The notes beneath the pieces are model-generated. The model was not told the DNA's origin. It did no database searches and saw only the letters and a program-made list of their open reading frames with translations. A DNA stretch of 64,000 nt from Lachnospiraceae bacterium 28-4 (lineage in GTDB: Bacteria > Bacillota > Clostridia > Lachnospirales > Lachnospiraceae), in contig KE159601.1 in the NCBI GenBank assembly GCA_000403275.2, positions 62,001-126,000 of the forward strand. The letters run 5' to 3'. Both the position numbers and the translations under genes were made by a program. Shown here in pieces: positions 9,430-63,943 of the stretch. How positions within the stretch are numbered: the stretch's first letter is position 1; each line of letters starts with the position of its first letter.

Positions 9430-10542
9430 TTATTCCCTTTCCTTTTTTTCAAAAATCTCCTGAAATGCCCTTTCATAAGGCGCTCTCGCAATGCCGTACT
9501 CGGTAACCACTGCGGTAATCAAATCATGGTCTGTCACATCAAATGCCGGATTGTATACCTTGACTCCTTCCGGTGCCATCCGTTCCTTATACCACATACT
9601 GGTCACTTCCTCTTCCGGTCTTTGCTCGATATGGATATCCCCGCCTGTTTTTGTGTTTCTGTCTATCGTAGACGTAGGGGCGCACACATAAAACGGAATG
9701 TTATGCCGTTTCGCCGCTATCGCCACCAGCGAAGTTCCTATCTTATTAGCGGTATCCCCATTAAGCGCCACCCTGTCGCAGCCTACGAAAACGGCGTTGA
9801 TCCATCCATTTTTCATAACCATGGCGGACATATTGTCGCAAATCAGCGTTACATCCACGCCGGCAGCCTGTAATTCATAAGCCGTCAGCCTTGCTCCCTG
9901 CAGCAGCGGCCGCGTCTCATCGGCAAACACCCGGAAATGATATCCTCTCTCCTGCCCAAGATAAATGGGCGCCGTAGCTGTCCCGTATTTGCTGGTAGCC
10001 AGCTGGCCGGCATTACAATGGGTCAATATCCCGTCCCCTGGCTTCACCAGACTGAGGCCATATTCCCCAATGGTTTTGCATACCCATATATCCTCTTCCT
10101 TTATGGCAAGAGCCTCCTGCTTCAAAGCTCTTTTTATCTCATCTATCCCACAGCCCTTATTCTCCCGGCAAACTTTTTCCATCCGCTCCAGCGCCCAGGA
10201 CAGGTTGACCGCCGTAGGCCTTGCCGAATTCAAATAATCCTTTTGCTTTACGAATTCCCGGTAAAAGCTCTCATAATGATCCGCATCCGTTCCTTTTGCC
10301 AGAAGATAGATTCCGAAAGCCGCCGTCACTCCGATCGCCGGCGCGCCGCGCACTCTTAGAAGATAAATGGCATCCCATATTTCCTGCGCCGTCCTTAACC
10401 GGATCAACTCCATTTTCCCGGGTAGAAGAGTCTGGTCAATGATTATGATGCTCCCATCCTCATCGTCCAGTTCCACGGTTTCATATTCCATGCTTTTATT
10501 AAAAAGCATACTTTTATCAAAAAATTGGCCATCGTCTTTCAT
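9430..10542 (-). CDS. mtnA: S-methyl-5-thioribose-1-phosphate isomerase
   Basis: 370 residues. It isomerises methylthioribose-1-phosphate to methylthioribulose-1-phosphate in methionine salvage. Family motifs seen: [19 protein letters not shown] near the N-terminus, [12 protein letters not shown] with the catalytic Cys, [18 protein letters not shown] with the catalytic Asp, and [11 protein letters not shown]. It begins 20 nt after the stop of the GGDEF/EAL gene on the same strand, so the two are probably co-transcribed. No other methionine-salvage gene is in the window, so the substrate may also be ribose-1-phosphate or a 5-deoxyribose relative, as known for some MtnA homologues. Confidence 0.93.
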
Positions 10543-10562
10543 CCCGCTTTTTCCGCCCTTTT

Positions 10563-12668
10563 CTATATTCTTTTAATGCAGACAAGGTAATGTTCTTCCC
10601 CGTGTCCGGTTTCCACCTTAAAAAAGGTGGCTGATACCCATTCAAATCCCATTTTCTCCGGATTGTTGATCCTGTAATCGACAGAAAGCCCTCCTGAGCG
10701 GCTTTCGCTCAATATGCGGTCCATCACTGCCTTATCCTTCATGGCGTCGCTGTATTCCGTGCGGTTTTTTGACACGATGTTGACCTGGAATTTATCAAAA
10801 AAATCCCGATAGTACACCCGGTCTCCTTCTTTCATGTCCCCGTCCACAGAATGCAGCACTTCCGCATAGCCGGTATCGTAATCAAGCCGGTATACTTTAT
10901 CGAACACACGGAATAATGCTTTGCTGTAACGATTGCGGTATACTTCTTCTTCCGCCTTCTTGATCGCGGTAATGTCCATCAGATAGAAGTAGTACATTTT
11001 GCGTTTTCCTTTGTTCCCAAGAAAACGTATCTTGGCATCCAGCCATATCTCTTCTCCGTCATACCGCCTCCGCCTTATCTGCGCATGAACCGTATCGCTC
11101 GTTTTCTCCGCCTCCGCGCACTTCTCCAAAAGCTCCCGATAGTCTTTTTCTTCCATGTATTTCCCTATCAGGCGTTCCTCCGCAACCATTCCTATGTTGT
11201 CCGCTTTCATCATTTCATAGTAGCCTTTGTTGACGCGAACTACCTCCATTCTATCGTCCACCCGCTCATAAATGCTGAGCCCTCCCAGCATATTCTGAAA
11301 TACGCCCTCCGATTTCAGACTTTCGCTATATAAAATGGAAAAATCGTTCTCATTGGAACCCACCATCACCGCGCTCTTAATATCCACCAGCGCCGGATCA
11401 TTCAGCAAATTTTCAAATTCCTTCTCCGGCATAGGGCGGTAAAAATAATAACCCTGAATATAGTTGCACTCTATGCTCTTTAAGAAATTCAGTTCTTCTT
11501 CCGTTTCCACGCCTTCCGCCACCGCCCGGAGACTCATCCACTTTGTCATCCTGACGATAGATTCCAGTATAATTGCCGACTTTCCCCCTTTTCCCAGGTC
11601 ATCCATAAACTTCATATCAATTTTTAATATATCCACAGGCAATTCTTTCAAAGTATTAAAAGAAGAATAGCCGCTTCCGAAATCATCCATCAATATGACA
11701 AACCCGTAATTCTGAAGTTTTTCCACGATCTCCCGGACTCTTTTCGGGTCGTCCGCATAAGCGCTCTCCGTCACCTCCAACCGGAGCAGCTGCGGATTCA
11801 ATTCATATTTTTCTACGATTTCTATGATATCTTCACAAAGATTTTTATTATAAAAATCCATCTGGGAAACATTCGTGGATATGGGTACGATATCCAGCCC
11901 CTGATCCCGTCTCCGTTTCAGCATGGCGCATACCCGGTCCCATATATACTTGTCCAATATATTGATATAACCGTTCCGCTCAAACAATGGGATAAAAACA
12001 TCCGGCGCGATCATCCCCCTTTCCGGATGCTTCCAGCGAACCAGTGCCTCCGCGCTTATAATCGTTCCGTCCGAAGCATTGCAAACCGGCTGGTAATACA
12101 CCTCAAACTGCTTTTCCCTGATGGCCGCATCGCAGTCGCTCATCAGCATCTGTTCCTTGACAATGCTTTCCCGCATGGATTCATCATAATAAGCAAATGG
12201 CTTTACATAATTCGCCTTTACCGTATCCATGGCAATCCGGCTCCTGTCCACCATAGATGCTATACCTATGCTTCTGTCCGTTACCACATATAGCCCATAA
12301 CATGCCGCAAAACGGTATTCCGTGCCTTCACAAGTATATATAATTTCACCGGAGTCGCTGAATTCCCGTAATTTCTCCAGAAGATCCGCAGGAAAACAGG
12401 CTACGAAATTATCGCTTTCCATCCTTCCGTAAGTTCCTTCCACCCCTTTGTATGCCACACGTATCCGATCCGCCATACTTTTTAATACTTCATCTCCTGC
12501 ACTTCTTCCAAACAATTCGTTGATCACCTTAAACCGCTGTACATCCCAGTAGGCGATGATATACTCCTTATCCGGATTTTTTGCAAAAAGTTCTTCCGTC
12601 GCTTTGTAAAAACCTTCCAGATTATAAATTCCGGTCAGCTGATCGATCAGCTTCTCCCTTCCCTCCAT
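10563..12668 (-). CDS. c-di-GMP phosphodiesterase: degenerate GGDEF, EAL, C-terminal PAS-like region
   Basis: 701 residues. The GGDEF domain (about 10-150) has MESDNF where GGDEF should be, so cyclase activity is unlikely; it may bind GTP as an allosteric domain. The EAL domain (about 175-415) looks intact: [57 protein letters not shown] and [10 protein letters not shown] supply the expected metal and catalytic residues. After it come a PAS domain ([13 protein letters not shown] at its end) and a second PAS-like region. Expected role: c-di-GMP hydrolysis tuned by ligand binding; no membrane segment. Start at ATG 12668, with AAAGGAG six nt upstream; upstream in-frame codons lack a site. mtnA follows. 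Confidence 0.88.
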
Positions 12669-58956: not shown

Positions 58957-59058
58957 TCATTTTCCAAACAGATCACTATGCGTCCCTGTACGCGATAGTT
59001 TCATTGCCAATTTGTAATCTTTTTTAAATTTTGTCGTCCAAACAATATCCCGACTCAT
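58957..59058 (-). pseudogene. YafQ-type toxin with internal deletion
   Basis: 33 codons from ATG 59058: SRDIVWTTKFKKDYKLAMKL, a YafQ-like start, joined in frame to SRTGTHSDLFGK, the family's C-terminus. About 55 central residues are missing, so the toxin is dead while its ends survive. Its ATG overlaps the antitoxin stop, as in intact dinJ-yafQ operons. Confidence 0.7.
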
Positions 59059-59282
59059 CTTTTCAGCTCCCAGAGAGCTTCCTCAACATCGGAATAACGC
59101 TTCACATCAAGATCATGTGTAATGCATTCCGCCTCCAACATCGCTGCTACTGTTTCTTTGTTTGGCTGCTCCAGTCTCACATCAAAAGGAAAGCCTCCCA
59201 CACGAAGTGACTGGCGTAAAAAAACATTAATAGCAGTGGTAAGGTTCATCCCTAATTCATCGAATAAGCTTTCGCACTGCTT
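59055..59282 (-). pseudogene. DinJ/RelB-type antitoxin lacking its start
   Basis: The frame is homologous from about 59282 (KQCESLFDELGMNLTTAINV) through FLRQSLRVGGFPFDV to the TGA at 59055. The ribbon that begins DinJ proteins is missing: the sequence joins the stop of the SIR2 fusion gene four nt upstream. An internal Met at 59249 could start a 64-residue piece, but its ribosome binding site is poor. Confidence 0.7.
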
Positions 59283-59285
59283 TTT

Positions 59286-62033
59286 CTATTGCGTCCGAAA
59301 GTATTCTCCATACTCTTTATTATATTCTGCAAATTCTACATTAACGCCCTTTTCTTTCAGAAGATCTACGAACCCCTGTCCGTCGAAACATAATTTTTCC
59401 ACCGCATTTTTACAAACCAGAAGATTGCCGTCTGGTTCCAGCGTCAACGCAAAATTTTCAAAGCAATCCTCATTATAACCATTGCAGGACTTACATGGAT
59501 ACACAAAATAATTGATATTGTTTTTCAGTTCCTCATAATGCCGGGATCCGCCCCCTGTTTCCCCTGTCGTCAAATCTCTTTTTGCATCTTCCAACGGAAC
59601 ATATATGTCCTCAAAAACACCGCCGTCTTCCCCCCTCGGCTTTACCATATCAATGACTTTGACTTTGGAATCCTTTTCCAGTAAAAGCTCCTGCATCCGG
59701 TCATCGTCCAACAGGCCCCTTAATCCGGGGGCAATATATTTATGCACCGGTATATTCACTGTAAAGCGAATATTTTCCTCGTTCAATACCTTCAGCTTTT
59801 TCTGGAAAGCTTCCAGATAGGTTTCTCTTTTGTAGTTCCTGCATCCGGTATATGCCTCAAAAGAATCGTTATCATATCCATACAGGCTGATTTTATAGCG
59901 GATATGGTACTTATCCAGTTTTTTTGCCACTTCCCTGTCCAGTCTTTCGCCATTCGTAATGACAGCTACGTCTGTCATAGGGAAATACTGTGCAATGCCT
60001 TCCAGCAGATTTTCCAGCTGGGGGATGCTCTGCATCGGTTCTCCGCCTGTGACGGTAATCTGTCTCACATCAAAGAGCTGTTCCAGCCTTTTCAAGCTTT
60101 CCAAAACGGCTTTATGGTCATACACTATCGCCGTATTGCTCAAATTTTCATGATGGCATCCCCTGCATTTATAGCAGCAGTTCGACCATAGCACGATCCT
60201 CAGCTTTATCGTCTTTTTCCGTATTTTCTCTTTTTTATCAAAAGCCTCCAGAAGCAGCTGTTCCGTGCATGCCAGTTTTCCTTCCCGATGCAGCTCCAGC
60301 AATTCTTCTTTTGTATATAATTGATAATTTTCAGCCAATTCCTTATTCATTTTTTCATTTTTTCTACAAGTCCCGTTACTGGTGCATACAAAAGCAAGAC
60401 CCGGAATATTGGCGTTAAACGTTTTAAAGGTATTGCATATTTCCACATTGTCTATTAACAGATTACAGTCATCCCTGTAATGCCTTGCCAGCGCCCCTTC
60501 AAAGTCTTCGCCGGTGCGCATGCGCCCGCCCACCGGAGCGATCATCCCCGAAGCAATCGCTGTATTTTGCTTTCTTTTTTCCATCAAAACCTTGTCGTTA
60601 AAAAAGCAAAATCCCGATACATGCACTTCCATGCCGTAAATTTCGGCTCCCTTTATAGCGATTCCCTCATCCACATAAAAGTTGTAACTCTTTTGAAGCA
60701 TCACGCCGCCGTTCTTATTGGACTCTATGTTATACTGAACCGTCTGGAACTTCCCAAACATCTTTTCATCCCTGTCTTTGAACTCCAAACCGGCGCGATC
60801 CACAATATACCCCTTGGAGCCTTCTTTCATTTGACGCTGCATCATGCCTTCCATATCTTTTTTGAAAGTTGCGTCAAAATCCCTCTCATGAAAATTCTCT
60901 TCATTGCAGGAGTAAAAATATACGATACCGGCATCTTCCAAAATATATTTTTTGGCGTTGCCCCGCTTCCATATATCCTTATACTTTTTAAAAGCTTCCT
61001 CGATAACTGTTGATTTTTCCATATGTATCGCCGCTATAATCATAGAATTCTTATGGCTGTTATAAATATATCTTACTTCCCTGCCTTCCGTTTTCTCCAG
61101 ACATTTTTCCACGCATTCCCGAAATGCCTTTTGGTTCGCCGCCTCCACGCCAACCCGGATCCATACGGTTTCTCTCGGTCGTTCTTTTATTCTATTTAAA
61201 ATTTTCCGAATCTCTCCGACCTTTTTCTCATTTTCCTTCGGTATGGCAATTTTCTTGCAATCGATCTCCACTTTCTCGTCCGTGATAACAAAATAACTGT
61301 TATTCGTATTTTTTGCGTTTTGCGTAAGAAAGTTCCTTAAATACTCATCCGCCAGGGAAATACCTATAAAAAGAATATGATAATTATTTAACAGACCGTG
61401 GAAAACGGAAATCCACCGTTCATTCCGGTAGATTTCTTCTACCGCTTCTTTTGTTATAATAATAGAAGACTCTTTATTAATATGCCCGTGCAGGTAAAGA
61501 ACCTTTTTCCTTTTTTCATCCGGCCCGAATAAATCCGCATTTGCCTGGTCCTTGAGTACATCAATGTCATAAGACTCGCACCGCGGATCCACCTTATTCA
61601 AAAAAGTATCATAATTTGTTGTTATAAAAAAGGAAATGTCGCTGTCTTTCAAGTCTTTATAATTATGATCCATCGCAGATAAAATTTCTTCATTGTTATT
61701 CTGCTTATCTCTGATATAGTTCGCGATCAGAGACCTGATCTTATCTTCCCCTACTTTGGCCACACTCTTTACATATTCCATGGCTTCCCAAAAATTCACT
61801 CTGTCTATTTCCTCAATGCAAGCCTTTCTTTGCTGGGGATTGGCAATCACCTCTTCCACTACATGCTGAATCAGCTCCTTCCACCCCGGCAGATTGAGCT
61901 GCATCGATAATCCCGCTCCATAAAATACGATCAGGCGCTTTTTTAAATATGCCGTATTTAACTGCTTAATGTATTGATGCAGTCTGTTTTCGTCTTCGCT
62001 TCCTTCTGTTATTTCCTCCCGCCTTTTTCTCAT
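59286..62033 (-). CDS. SIR2 - Nudix-like - radical SAM fusion protein
   Basis: 915 residues from ATG 62033 (AAGGGGGGAATCGGAA upstream; the ATG at 62060 is less likely). SIR2_2-type domain, about 28-255: FYGAGLSMQLNLPGW, ITTNYDTFL, YLHGHINK with the catalytic His, and LFIGISLADEYL. Unrecognised region, about 290-460. Nudix-like domain, about 465-580: the box reads G-x5-E-x7-R but HY-x-DD replaces the usual E-x-x-EE, so hydrolysis is doubtful. Radical SAM domain, about 608-905: C-x3-C-x2-C (Cys 619, 623, 626), TGGEP at 662-666, ISLYGY, and a C-terminal Cys group (847, 850, 857, 874, 882) like a SPASM/twitch cluster site. SIR2 domains of this class cleave NAD+ in phage defence. The combination is new to me; the natural guess is a nucleotide/NAD-linked conflict or modification enzyme. 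Third gene of its cassette. Confidence 0.85.
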   Translation of the reverse strand: MRKRREEITEGSEDENRLHQYIKQLNTAYLKKRLIVFYGAGLSMQLNLPGWKELIQHVVEEVIANPQQRKACIEEIDRVNFWEAMEYVKSVAKVGEDKIRSLIANYIRDKQNNNEEILSAMDHNYKDLKDSDISFFITTNYDTFLNKVDPRCESYDIDVLKDQANADLFGPDEKRKKVLYLHGHINKESSIIITKEAVEEIYRNERWISVFHGLLNNYHILFIGISLADEYLRNFLTQNAKNTNNSYFVITDEKVEIDCKKIAIPKENEKKVGEIRKILNRIKERPRETVWIRVGVEAANQKAFRECVEKCLEKTEGREVRYIYNSHKNSMIIAAIHMEKSTVIEEAFKKYKDIWKRGNAKKYILEDAGIVYFYSCNEENFHERDFDATFKKDMEGMMQRQMKEGSKGYIVDRAGLEFKDRDEKMFGKFQTVQYNIESNKNGGVMLQKSYNFYVDEGIAIKGAEIYGMEVHVSGFCFFNDKVLMEKRKQNTAIASGMIAPVGGRMRTGEDFEGALARHYRDDCNLLIDNVEICNTFKTFNANIPGLAFVCTSNGTCRKNEKMNKELAENYQLYTKEELLELHREGKLACTEQLLLEAFDKKEKIRKKTIKLRIVLWSNCCYKCRGCHHENLSNTAIVYDHKAVLESLKRLEQLFDVRQITVTGGEPMQSIPQLENLLEGIAQYFPMTDVAVITNGERLDREVAKKLDKYHIRYKISLYGYDNDSFEAYTGCRNYKRETYLEAFQKKLKVLNEENIRFTVNIPVHKYIAPGLRGLLDDDRMQELLLEKDSKVKVIDMVKPRGEDGGVFEDIYVPLEDAKRDLTTGETGGGSRHYEELKNNINYFVYPCKSCNGYNEDCFENFALTLEPDGNLLVCKNAVEKLCFDGQGFVDLLKEKGVNVEFAEYNKEYGEYFRTQ

Positions 62034-62057
62034 TTCCGATTCCCCCCTTCTTCCAAA

Positions 62058-62108
62058 CATTTAGGAACTCTTGGGCTGCGCCCTTTGCAGCCTTAGTGTT
62101 CCTTAATG
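62058..62108 (-). repeat. Stem-loop between the oxidoreductase and SIR2 fusion genes
   Basis: Minus strand: CATTAAGGAACACT, GGCTGC, loop AAAGGGC, GCAGCC, then AGAGTTCCTAAATG forms an imperfect 20-bp stem without a T-tract. It could stabilise or process the transcript between the two genes rather than terminate it. Confidence 0.55.
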
Positions 62109-62114
62109 TTTTTC

Positions 62115-63488
62115 TCACACGATCTTCTCTGCCACGTACACTCCCGAAACTGCGGCAGGTATGATCCCCTGTGCCAGTCCCGCGCAATCTCCCGTTACGT
62201 ATAATCCGTCCACCGTCGTCATCATAGCTTCATCCAGACAGATCGTATCCCATAAAGACTCGATCTCCATTCCCAGAATATATATTTTTTTCCCAAACTC
62301 CTCTATCTGCCCTGCATGCAAACCGTTGAACTCCATGATCCATCGAATAATCTCATCCGCGACCTCGCAAAACATAGTATGCTCCTCCGGCTCTAAAAGC
62401 TTCCATACCGCTGCCGGCCTGGCAGATGCCAGGCTGGTGCCGTTTTGCTCCGAACCATCTTCCCTGTTTCGGAAAGAACTATAGTTTTGAAAAACCGGCA
62501 TTCCCGAATAACCGCCCAACTTTTTATAACGGGCAATATAGCGGGAAACCACCTGTGAATATGTCATTCGCTCCCTGTCATGAGTAAGCTGCATCAGCAG
62601 CGCAAAGTTTGCAAAACCGCTCTCCTCATCTTTATCCAGAAGAATGTGACCGTCCAATAACGTAAAGTCCCCGTAATTCTCGCCTTTCAGTTTTCCGCCT
62701 TTCTTTCCCGCGCAAAAACAGAAAGTCTTAAACTTTCTCCCGCCTTTGACAAACCGCAGCTTCAAATCGGGATGACGTTCTCCGATGCCCGTCAAATATT
62801 TCTTATCCATTTCAAACCGGAAGCCTAACGATATAACGGGCGGTTCCGCCTTTACTCCCAGATGTCCTGTCATTTCCTTCCACCATGTCACGCCGTCTCT
62901 GCCCGTAGCGATGACAACTTTTGCCGCATAAACGGTCTCTTCCCCCGACGTCCTCTGCAATGTCAGAAAAAATCCATCTTCCTGTTTTTCTATCTTTTTT
63001 ACTACTGTTTCCAGAGAAATACATTGGTTGGATTCCAAATAATCAAAACTGTTCCTGAGAGCCTCCTTCACCTGCCCGCTGTCCAAAGAACAGATCCCAT
63101 AATCCTTTACATCCATCTCCGTTATCTTATTTCCCTCTGTCATCTGAAATTCCAGATACCGGTTCCGGAAAAAATGTTCCAAAGCAAACTCCAGGCAGGA
63201 ATAATAAGCATCCGGGCCTAAAAGCTGATACAGCCTTTTCCCGCTTGGATACACGGACAGTTTCACGGAATCCCCATAATGGATACAGCCGCCAAATCCG
63301 GAAATCACATTGCAAATGCCATCGCATTTCATGCATGTCCTCCCGTGGTCCACCGGACAATACCGCTTTTCGTAGGAACGCCCTTTCTCGTAAATCATAA
63401 AATTATGGTTCCCTTTATCTAAAAGCTTCATGCCGCATGCAATGCCGGCAGCCCCTGCGCCGACAATCGCCACATCTAATTTTCTCAT
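62115..63488 (-). CDS. FAD-dependent oxidoreductase with cysteine cluster
   Basis: 457 residues. N-terminal dinucleotide motif AIVGAGAAGIACG and C-terminal TGDCAGLAQGIIPAAVSGVY bind FAD. Residues about 40-65 carry CPVDHGRTCMKCDGICN (C-x7-C-x2-C-x3-C) followed by GFGGCIHYGDSVKLS, like the COG2509 FAD-dehydrogenase family, where the cysteines may hold an Fe-S cluster. It could supply electrons or reductively process a product for the radical SAM partner; this is inference. Start at ATG 63488. It lies 41 nt after the deoxyribosyltransferase-like gene and 81 nt before the SIR2 fusion gene. Confidence 0.83.
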   Translation of the reverse strand: MRKLDVAIVGAGAAGIACGMKLLDKGNHNFMIYEKGRSYEKRYCPVDHGRTCMKCDGICNVISGFGGCIHYGDSVKLSVYPSGKRLYQLLGPDAYYSCLEFALEHFFRNRYLEFQMTEGNKITEMDVKDYGICSLDSGQVKEALRNSFDYLESNQCISLETVVKKIEKQEDGFFLTLQRTSGEETVYAAKVVIATGRDGVTWWKEMTGHLGVKAEPPVISLGFRFEMDKKYLTGIGERHPDLKLRFVKGGRKFKTFCFCAGKKGGKLKGENYGDFTLLDGHILLDKDEESGFANFALLMQLTHDRERMTYSQVVSRYIARYKKLGGYSGMPVFQNYSSFRNREDGSEQNGTSLASARPAAVWKLLEPEEHTMFCEVADEIIRWIMEFNGLHAGQIEEFGKKIYILGMEIESLWDTICLDEAMMTTVDGLYVTGDCAGLAQGIIPAAVSGVYVAEKIV

Positions 63489-63529
63489 TTTTGTCCCCAT
63501 TCCATTCCTGATGCGCAAATAGCAACAAA

Positions 63530-63943
63530 CTACTCCATATTCGAAAATTCCTGCAGCAAACGCTCTTTTTCTTCTTTTCTGAGAACATTTTCTTCAAAAG
63601 TCAAATCTTCGATTCCTATTTCCTGAATTTCTTCATATGTCTTTCCCAAAGAAAAAAAACGTATGCTTTTTCCCTGTGCCATTCCCATGCGCATCTCTGC
63701 CAGCACGCCGTCGGCAACAGGGCCAAAAACCCATATTTCATCACTTAAATCAACCAAACTGGCATTTGCCGAAATCACCAGTTCCCTGTCTACCATGTCA
63801 TTCATAAAATAGGACCAGTTATTAAAAGGATTCAACGGAACAGCATCATGTTCTAATACATACTTTGCAACCATCATCTTTGCAAAATAGTAATATTTAG
63901 ACTGTGCAGTATATACTACTTTTTTTCTTCCCTCATTTTTCAT
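63530..63943 (-). CDS. Nucleoside 2-deoxyribosyltransferase-like protein
   Basis: 137 residues, a single alpha/beta domain. Start VVYTAQSKYYYFAKMMVAKYVLEHDAVPLNPFNNW, then NDMVDRELVISANASLVDLSDEIWVFGP and DGVLAEMRMGMAQGKSIRFF. The order strand, Tyr-rich helix, LNPF, then a G-x-x-x-E helix matches the nucleoside deoxyribosyltransferase/DUF4406 superfamily, the Glu being the usual nucleophile. These act on N-glycosidic bonds of nucleotides or signals. First gene of the cassette within the window; its upstream region reaches the right edge. Confidence 0.72.
   Translation of the reverse strand: MKNEGRKKVVYTAQSKYYYFAKMMVAKYVLEHDAVPLNPFNNWSYFMNDMVDRELVISANASLVDLSDEIWVFGPVADGVLAEMRMGMAQGKSIRFFSLGKTYEEIQEIGIEDLTFEENVLRKEEKERLLQEFSNME

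Follow-up and report, generated by a model that had tools for sequence, protein, structure and literature searches.

The stretch of DNA examined here, 64,000 nucleotides of contig KE159601.1 from Lachnospiraceae bacterium 28-4 (positions 62,001 to 126,000 of the forward strand; hereafter the window), carries on its minus strand a cassette of three co-directional genes (window 59286–63943), all three open reading frames of the original prediction being present. Gene 1 (P0003; 63530–63943) encodes a 137-aa protein of the DUF7768/nucleoside 2-deoxyribosyltransferase (NDT)/nucleotide N-glycosidase-like kind, gene 2 (P0002; 62115–63518) a flavin adenine dinucleotide (FAD)-dependent oxidoreductase with a conserved Cys cluster, and gene 3 (P0001; 59286–62060), in one uninterrupted frame, a fusion of a SIR2 domain, an unassigned region, a Nudix-like domain and a radical SAM domain. 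Gene 2 comprises 467 aa from a TTG start or 457 aa from the ATG at 63488, which is likely the true start, and gene 3 comprises 924 aa from its first ATG (62060) or 915 aa from the ATG at 62033, the latter preceded by a G-rich stretch resembling a ribosome-binding site; residue numbers below are those of the 924-aa version. With the inner ATGs at 63488 and 62033 the intergenic gaps are 41 and 81 nt, exactly as predicted. The G+C contents of genes 1 (0.374) and 3 (0.414) are below that of the window (0.455), and that of gene 2 (0.474) is not.

The SIR2 domain of gene 3 (61167–61976, minus strand; residues 29–298) is of the LmuA type. Its PADLOC matches are LmuA (3.6e-45), ThsA (6.2e-17) and Dsr1 (1.9e-15), Pfam SIR2_2 aligns to residues 145–264 (2e-18), and the nearest solved structures by sequence are KomC (8e-12) followed by ThsA (2.3e-07). 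The catalytic motifs are kept, with GAGLS at 48–52, TTNYD containing N149 and LHGH containing H191; on alignment to KomC and ThsA, H191 falls on KomC H146, the histidine altered in the KomC H146N entry. Moreover, the top partial match to gene 3 in 398 genomes of the phylum (7.9e-29, in the SIR2 part) is to an LmuA encoded in an LmuA-LmuC-LmuB operon (LmuA 9e-188, LmuC 1.2e-52, LmuB 1.2e-273). This LmuA kinship and the retained GAG, N149 and H191 bear out the proposal that the SIR2 part is of the defence-effector kind, and because of them NAD+ destruction is, on sequence grounds, most likely what gene 3 delivers. SIR2 NADases are widespread suicide effectors in bacterial immunity, and for many of them the activating switch is obscure. 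Two more SIR2-type proteins occur in the source genome, at G000:C1:351823-352527 (frame of 1249 aa) and G000:C3:586619-587029 (545 aa).

Despite the LmuA-type SIR2, we rejected membership of Lamassu. The LmuA match ends at residue 298, covering model positions 3–276 of 433, so that the C-terminal part of LmuA is unmatched, and the region of gene 3 behind its SIR2 domain shows no similarity to that part; in addition, neither LmuB nor LmuC was matched among the three cassette and five flanking proteins, to which the search of this genome was confined. In Lamassu itself, the C-terminal parts of LmuA effectors vary and possibly provide docking to other components, according to passages of PMC10586767.

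The part of gene 3 that follows the SIR2 domain consists of a middle region (60651–61166, minus strand; residues 299–470), which has no family match and no similarity to the docking or C-terminal part of LmuA and is possibly a linker or sensor, and a Nudix-like domain (60228–60647, minus strand; residues 472–611). The Nudix similarity may begin by about residue 398, as judged from a weak match of residues 398–609 to a Nudix-type protein (E 4.2e-4). Pfam NUDIX matches residues 481–588 weakly (0.006, 17 bits, below the cut-off of 21.1), and a search with residues 294–619 in 299 genomes of the family returned, besides gene 3 itself, only two Nudix-type proteins (2.3e-5 and 4.2e-4), the first of which has a canonical Nudix box. 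In gene 3, by contrast with the consensus GX5EX7REUXEEXGU, only G-x5-E and the R are retained, REUxEE being replaced by RHYRDD and the final G by N. The Nudix fold that had been predicted is therefore backed by the two Nudix-type matches, but its Pfam score is sub-threshold and its catalytic box degenerate.

That degeneracy bears on one explanation of the cassette, a pathway dismantling NAD+ in which SIR2 would release ADP-ribose (ADPR), the Nudix domain would split it and gene 1 would remove the base, blocking NARP1, by which phages rebuild NAD+. SIR2, Nudix-like and N-glycosidase-like parts do stand together in one operon, the solved Nudix structure nearest by sequence is an ADP-ribose pyrophosphatase (only E 0.019), and NARP1 reuses ADPR and nicotinamide, as stated in passages of PMC12774641. 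However, a Nudix box reading RHYRDD fits poorly with the catalysis required, and such a pathway would assign no role to the FAD and radical SAM enzymes; we consider it very unlikely.

The C-terminal radical SAM domain (59286–60227, minus strand; residues 612–924) had also been predicted correctly, since Pfam Radical_SAM matches residues 624–772 (3.9e-14) and the motifs are intact, with C628-x3-C632-x2-C635 and GGEP at 672–675. Profile searches of the large protein, as had been suggested, recovered SIR2_2 and Radical_SAM but left NUDIX under its threshold. The radical SAM part also has extra C-terminal cysteines (C856, C859, C866 and C883), all of them retained in a second copy of the locus in Lachnospiraceae bacterium 3-1 (described below). 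All NCBIfam matches of gene 3 lie far below cut-off, the top radical SAM one being MoaA with 45.5 bits against a required 325.25, and identity as MoaA (GTP 3',8-cyclase) was rejected on that score. A second MoaA model gives 44.9 bits, and the PADLOC model of prokaryotic viperins, pVip, matches the radical SAM part with 1.5e-11 and 42.2 bits. Like prokaryotic viperins, gene 3 would thus place a radical SAM enzyme in a defence-like setting, and it might be their relative, making a chain-terminating nucleotide with SIR2 as an add-on; defence by radical SAM enzymes that produce nucleotide analogues is described in parts of PMC12926258. Against this, MoaA models score equally, in a range that indicates superfamily-level similarity, and gene 3 differs from viperins in its SIR2 fusion and its C-terminal cysteine set. 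To our knowledge, such a cysteine set is not a viperin feature. With the pVip score below that of MoaA we rejected viperin identity for the domain, and we regard the viperin-like explanation as the least probable of those considered here.

Gene 1 is NDT-like, in agreement with the enzyme fold acting on N-glycosidic bonds originally proposed for it. It matches Pfam DUF7768 (2.5e-06, 28.1 bits against a cut-off of 26) and PHROG 355, nucleoside 2-deoxyribosyltransferase (1.9e-4), and in a model built from three sequences (predicted local distance difference test score, pLDDT, 72.9) its top folds in the PDB are NDTs (best E 6.9e-04, template-modelling score below 0.5; three matches at E<=0.001). 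Lower ranks include the cytidine monophosphate (CMP) N-glycosidases BcmB (8) and MilB (13), ThsB2 (12), ThsB (18) and DNPH1 (20), along with an unrelated lobe of a ribose-binding protein at rank 6. Residues D78 and E83 are invariant in all three aligned sequences.

For gene 2, Pfam Pyr_redox_2 (5.8e-10) and other FAD/NAD-binding families, and the invariance of C54, C62, C65 and C69 in five of five aligned sequences (its own and four actinobacterial relatives from Nocardia, Kitasatospora and Streptomyces clusters, 35–38% identical), confirm a flavoenzyme with a Cys cluster. More distant homologues are widespread, 125 of the family's 299 genomes having one at E<=1e-15 (its own included), mostly near 25% identity, and no match to the FAD protein was found in viral contigs. 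Of 14 plasmid loci with FAD relatives five were examined, and three of these, on actinobacterial plasmids (L038, L039 and L040), share the gene order GlutR_N-like, FAD, nucleotidyltransferase, radical SAM, radical SAM and a convergent GluRS-like gene. All six genes recur in L079, and all except the GlutR_N-like one in L080 and L084 (the L084 contig begins at the FAD gene), while L078 has the FAD, nucleotidyltransferase, second radical SAM and GluRS-like genes. Pfam-confirmed Nudix genes lie near the FAD relatives of L081 and L085, and in Catenulispora (L082) FAD, uncharacterised and DUF7768 proteins are encoded within 3.2 kb, the DUF7768 protein sharing 36% identity with gene 1 over 102 residues. 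Across 15 FAD-relative loci (of up to about 21 kb, some much shorter) no SIR2 protein was found with a profile built without gene 3; the Nudix and radical SAM profiles run on the same loci are partly circular, as gene 3 and sequences from some of those loci went into them, and only the SIR2 absence is used here. Because the FAD gene recurs with radical SAM, Nudix or NDT-like genes in differing clusters without SIR2, the sequences suggest that SIR2 may be a newcomer to this gene set.

These neighbourhoods are also an argument for another explanation, a small biosynthetic cluster whose product, derived from a nucleotide or otherwise, would be an antimetabolite, a cofactor or a signal, with SIR2 in a regulatory or precursor-supplying role. 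FAD relatives beside two radical SAM, nucleotidyltransferase, GlutR_N-like and GluRS-like genes on the three plasmids and in further genomes, others near Nudix genes and one with a DUF7768 protein would all fit, as would BcmB and MilB among the folds of gene 1. These two CMP N-glycosidases belong to antimetabolite pathways. The likeness is nonetheless incomplete: the actinobacterial clusters share with the cassette the FAD Cys motif and, in some, a radical SAM, Nudix or DUF7768 gene nearby, but they have no SIR2 and contain additional nucleotidyltransferase, GlutR_N-like and GluRS-like genes, and none of the six radical SAM proteins of L038–L040 closely resembles the radical SAM part of gene 3, BLASTP giving no match at E<1. 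The SIR2 of gene 3, moreover, is of the defence-effector type with its catalytic residues intact, and Pfam identified no transporter, ligase or resistance gene in the cassette. We consider biosynthesis somewhat unlikely as the function of the cassette, though it is the strongest competitor of the explanation favoured below.

The cluster of L038, L039, L040 and L079 (and partly L078, L080 and L084) itself looks like an undescribed biosynthetic cluster, and a literature search found no paper joining all its components. A second group of FAD relatives, in Streptomyces and its relatives (L081, L083, L085, L086, L087 and L041; 55–86% identical to one another), has several members adjoining a protein of about 420 aa of uncharacterised function, a Nudix gene or a protein that we take to be sugar-nucleotide-dehydrogenase-like. 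The Catenulispora relative of gene 1 weakly matches 12 phage records (PV036453 and PV036457 among them), mostly with Clostridia-type hosts, and two of these 12 phage proteins are annotated as nucleoside 2-deoxyribosyltransferase; plasmid searches with gene 1 and with this relative gave no matches.

A scan with the FAD alignment led to 12 loci, one of which (L088, of Lachnospiraceae bacterium 3-1) is the second copy mentioned above. It contains gene 1 (71% identical) and a frame-broken first half of gene 2, then a deletion, and after it gene 3 residues 839–922 (68% identical, with one internal stop). Comparison of the window and its adjoining 33 kb with L088 (20.8 kb) showed DNA similarity (about 71% identical) limited to the cassette, at L088 positions 9589–10985. 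In the shared segments dN (nonsynonymous divergence) is 0.13–0.24; dS (synonymous divergence) is 3.4 for gene 1 and 2.1 for the beginning of gene 2, the remaining two segments being saturated. These values fit selection having acted in the past on gene 1, gene 2 and the end of gene 3, although dS at such levels is unreliable and the comparison is silent on the fusion. Upstream of gene 1, both the window genome, where it lies 4–33 nt past the window end, and L088 have a promoter-like TTGTTA-17-TATATT with an extended TG; since chance alone would give 1.2 and 1.9 such sites in the two scans, the argument for this site is its sharing and not its score.

The insertion itself is visible in a genome of the same genus (G307), which keeps the order IbrA, IbrB, J-domain TPR, MBL and chemotaxis receptor at 77–96% identity without the cassette, and has 60 nt where the source genome has about 5,200 nt (~5.2 kb). 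At the window-side end of the insert an antitoxin frame without its N-terminus (59055–59285, minus strand), which we take to be DinJ/RelB-like, begins in frame directly after the gene 3 stop codon, followed by a 33-codon stub (58957–59058, minus strand), read from the sequence, that resembles the start of a toxin presumably of the YafQ type; the toxin-antitoxin relics reported beside the cassette are thus real. G307 was one of two genomes examined for this site among nine others with an MBL relative, the second (G313) being uninformative, with no other flank gene in 9 kb and 1 kb to the contig end on the relevant side. For the site in 3-1, the upstream flank occurs in 11 other genomes, eight of which were examined; one of these eight (G624) also keeps the downstream PadR gene, with about 1 kb containing a different gene in place of the cassette, which is not a clean empty site. 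No integrase or transposase was identified by Pfam among the three cassette genes. Because of the empty site in G307 and the second copy at an unrelated site, the cassette is not a fixed operon, and the fixed biosynthetic operon that the original prediction had named as fatal to it does not apply; by sequence comparison it is a discrete, horizontally moving module. The low G+C of genes 1 and 3, though not of gene 2, and a patchy distribution (below) agree with this.

The surroundings fit less well with the mobile or defence region that had been envisaged: the unit moves, but the five flanks tested (IbrA-like, IbrB-like, J-domain TPR, MBL-fold and chemotaxis receptor) are syntenic in G307 and give no support to a defence island. 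Only weak PADLOC matches occur among them, namely DndC for the IbrA-like protein (2e-08, 31.7 bits) and still weaker ones for the receptor and the MBL protein. The IbrA-like protein (with DUF3440 and PAPS-reductase domains), its small overlapping IbrB-like partner (both named here on presumed family membership) and the 1178-aa J-domain TPR protein lie on the same contig, upstream of the window end (L075:7066-12474).

How widely the complete cassette occurs was assessed in family (299 genomes) and phylum (398 genomes) searches that scored the two best candidates per genome. Full-length gene 3 was found in the source genome only, both in the family, where 37 of 299 genomes gave partial matches, and among 16 genomes of the genus, five of which match partly or wholly; the 398 phylum genomes yielded one intact gene 3, with two genomes matching at E<=1e-10. 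Exact 8-residue patterns, which detect close relatives only, revealed no full-length relative of gene 3 in contigs of 84,980 species. Among plasmids, 103 records match gene 3, but in none does the match exceed 80% of the query, and in the 20 listed it is confined to the SIR2 part. The genome of Lachnospiraceae bacterium 3-1 has no cassette match beyond L088; its genus is represented by 28 further genomes, one with a match to the SIR2 part only and 27 with none.

This rarity invites the explanation that in a single strain a SIR2 gene was recently and accidentally joined to a gene for a Nudix-radical SAM protein, the product having no joint function or being in decay. The original prediction had named such a chance fusion as a ground for its own refutation, and a single intact SIR2 fusion was found, alongside a broken second copy. 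Although one intact copy in the 299 family, 16 genus and 398 phylum genomes is what an accident would leave, the 924-aa frame is uninterrupted, its SIR2 and radical SAM motifs are intact, and G+C is similar along gene 3 (0.39–0.43); the dN of 0.13–0.24 between the copies points the same way for the parts they share, but not for the fusion. An accidental fusion appears distinctly unlikely, although it has to be taken seriously.

Two further defence systems resemble the cassette in part. KomC of Kongming is the nearest solved SIR2 chain to gene 3, and the nucleotide-gated NADase logic of Kongming, as set out in passages of PMC12774641, resembles the gating proposed below. The cassette enzymes, on the other hand, are NDT-like, FAD and radical SAM proteins and not KomA and KomB, and no deaminase or HAM1-type Pfam family was found in the cassette genes and the MBL neighbour. 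KomA is adenosine-deaminase-like and KomB HAM1-like. Thoeris shares with the cassette the ThsA match of the SIR2 part and the presence of ThsB2 and ThsB among the folds of gene 1, yet gene 1 is a DUF7768 protein that ranks NDTs above ThsB, and gene 3 has no SLOG match in Pfam. SLOG is a feature of ThsA. The claim that no described system has this architecture agrees with the open-licence papers listed by our searches, whose titles and abstract openings, and a few passages, describe no fusion or operon of this kind; radical SAM and SIR2/NADase appear separately, not fused, in the corresponding parts of PMC11326445 and other papers. What is new is the set of partners coupled to SIR2, SIR2 effectors themselves being known.

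On balance, we favour the view that the cassette is an operon complete in itself, spreading horizontally and serving in stress or anti-phage responses, in which nucleotide enzymes gate or feed a SIR2 NADase; the probability of roughly 0.45 that we give it applies to a defence or stress role as a whole. Once activated, the LmuA-type SIR2 of gene 3 would split NAD+, leading to cell arrest or death. Where LmuA has its presumed docking part, gene 3 instead has the middle region, followed by a Nudix fold of non-canonical type and a radical SAM enzyme. Genes 1 and 2 would cooperate with this enzyme in acting on a small molecule resembling a nucleotide; the degenerate Nudix domain or the middle region would sense how much of the substrate or product is present and would thereby gate the NADase in cis. 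We favour a cis-gated SIR2 effector because the SIR2 is LmuA-type, because Nudix domains serve as sensors elsewhere (in transcription factors of NAD/ADPr systems, according to parts of PMC9503650) and because nucleotides switch SIR2 effectors in other systems, namely deoxyinosine triphosphate (dITP) in Kongming and glycocyclic ADP-ribose (gcADPR) in Thoeris, as described in parts of PMC12774641 and PMC12926258. The domain make-up, the motifs and the insertion can be read from the sequences, whereas NADase activity, toxicity, the small molecule, the gating and an anti-phage effect are inferred. The narrower proposal, that a nucleotide derivative made or consumed by radical chemistry switches NAD+ destruction in cis, aided by the N-glycosidase and the flavoenzyme, is rather unlikely.

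Several observations weigh against an anti-phage operon of this kind. The gating step is conjectural, and a single-sequence model of residues 290–625, which span the middle region and the Nudix-like domain, was unusable (pLDDT 37.9). All data contain only one intact SIR2-bearing copy, and the copy in 3-1 cannot show an ancestral SIR2 fusion, the stretch for SIR2 and Nudix having been lost. Gene 3 had no match in phage records, nor did it or its C-terminal part match viral contigs by short exact patterns. The five flanking genes tested form no defence island, and the FAD relatives sit in actinobacterial clusters of metabolic or biosynthetic look.

In the cassette of Lachnospiraceae bacterium 28-4 the effector part of Lamassu is seen reused outside Lamassu. 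Its fusion with a radical SAM enzyme, together with two likely nucleotide enzymes, would point to an unexplored small-molecule switch and, if the proposed gating is true, to a class of defence that uses radical chemistry for sensing or signalling and not as the weapon.

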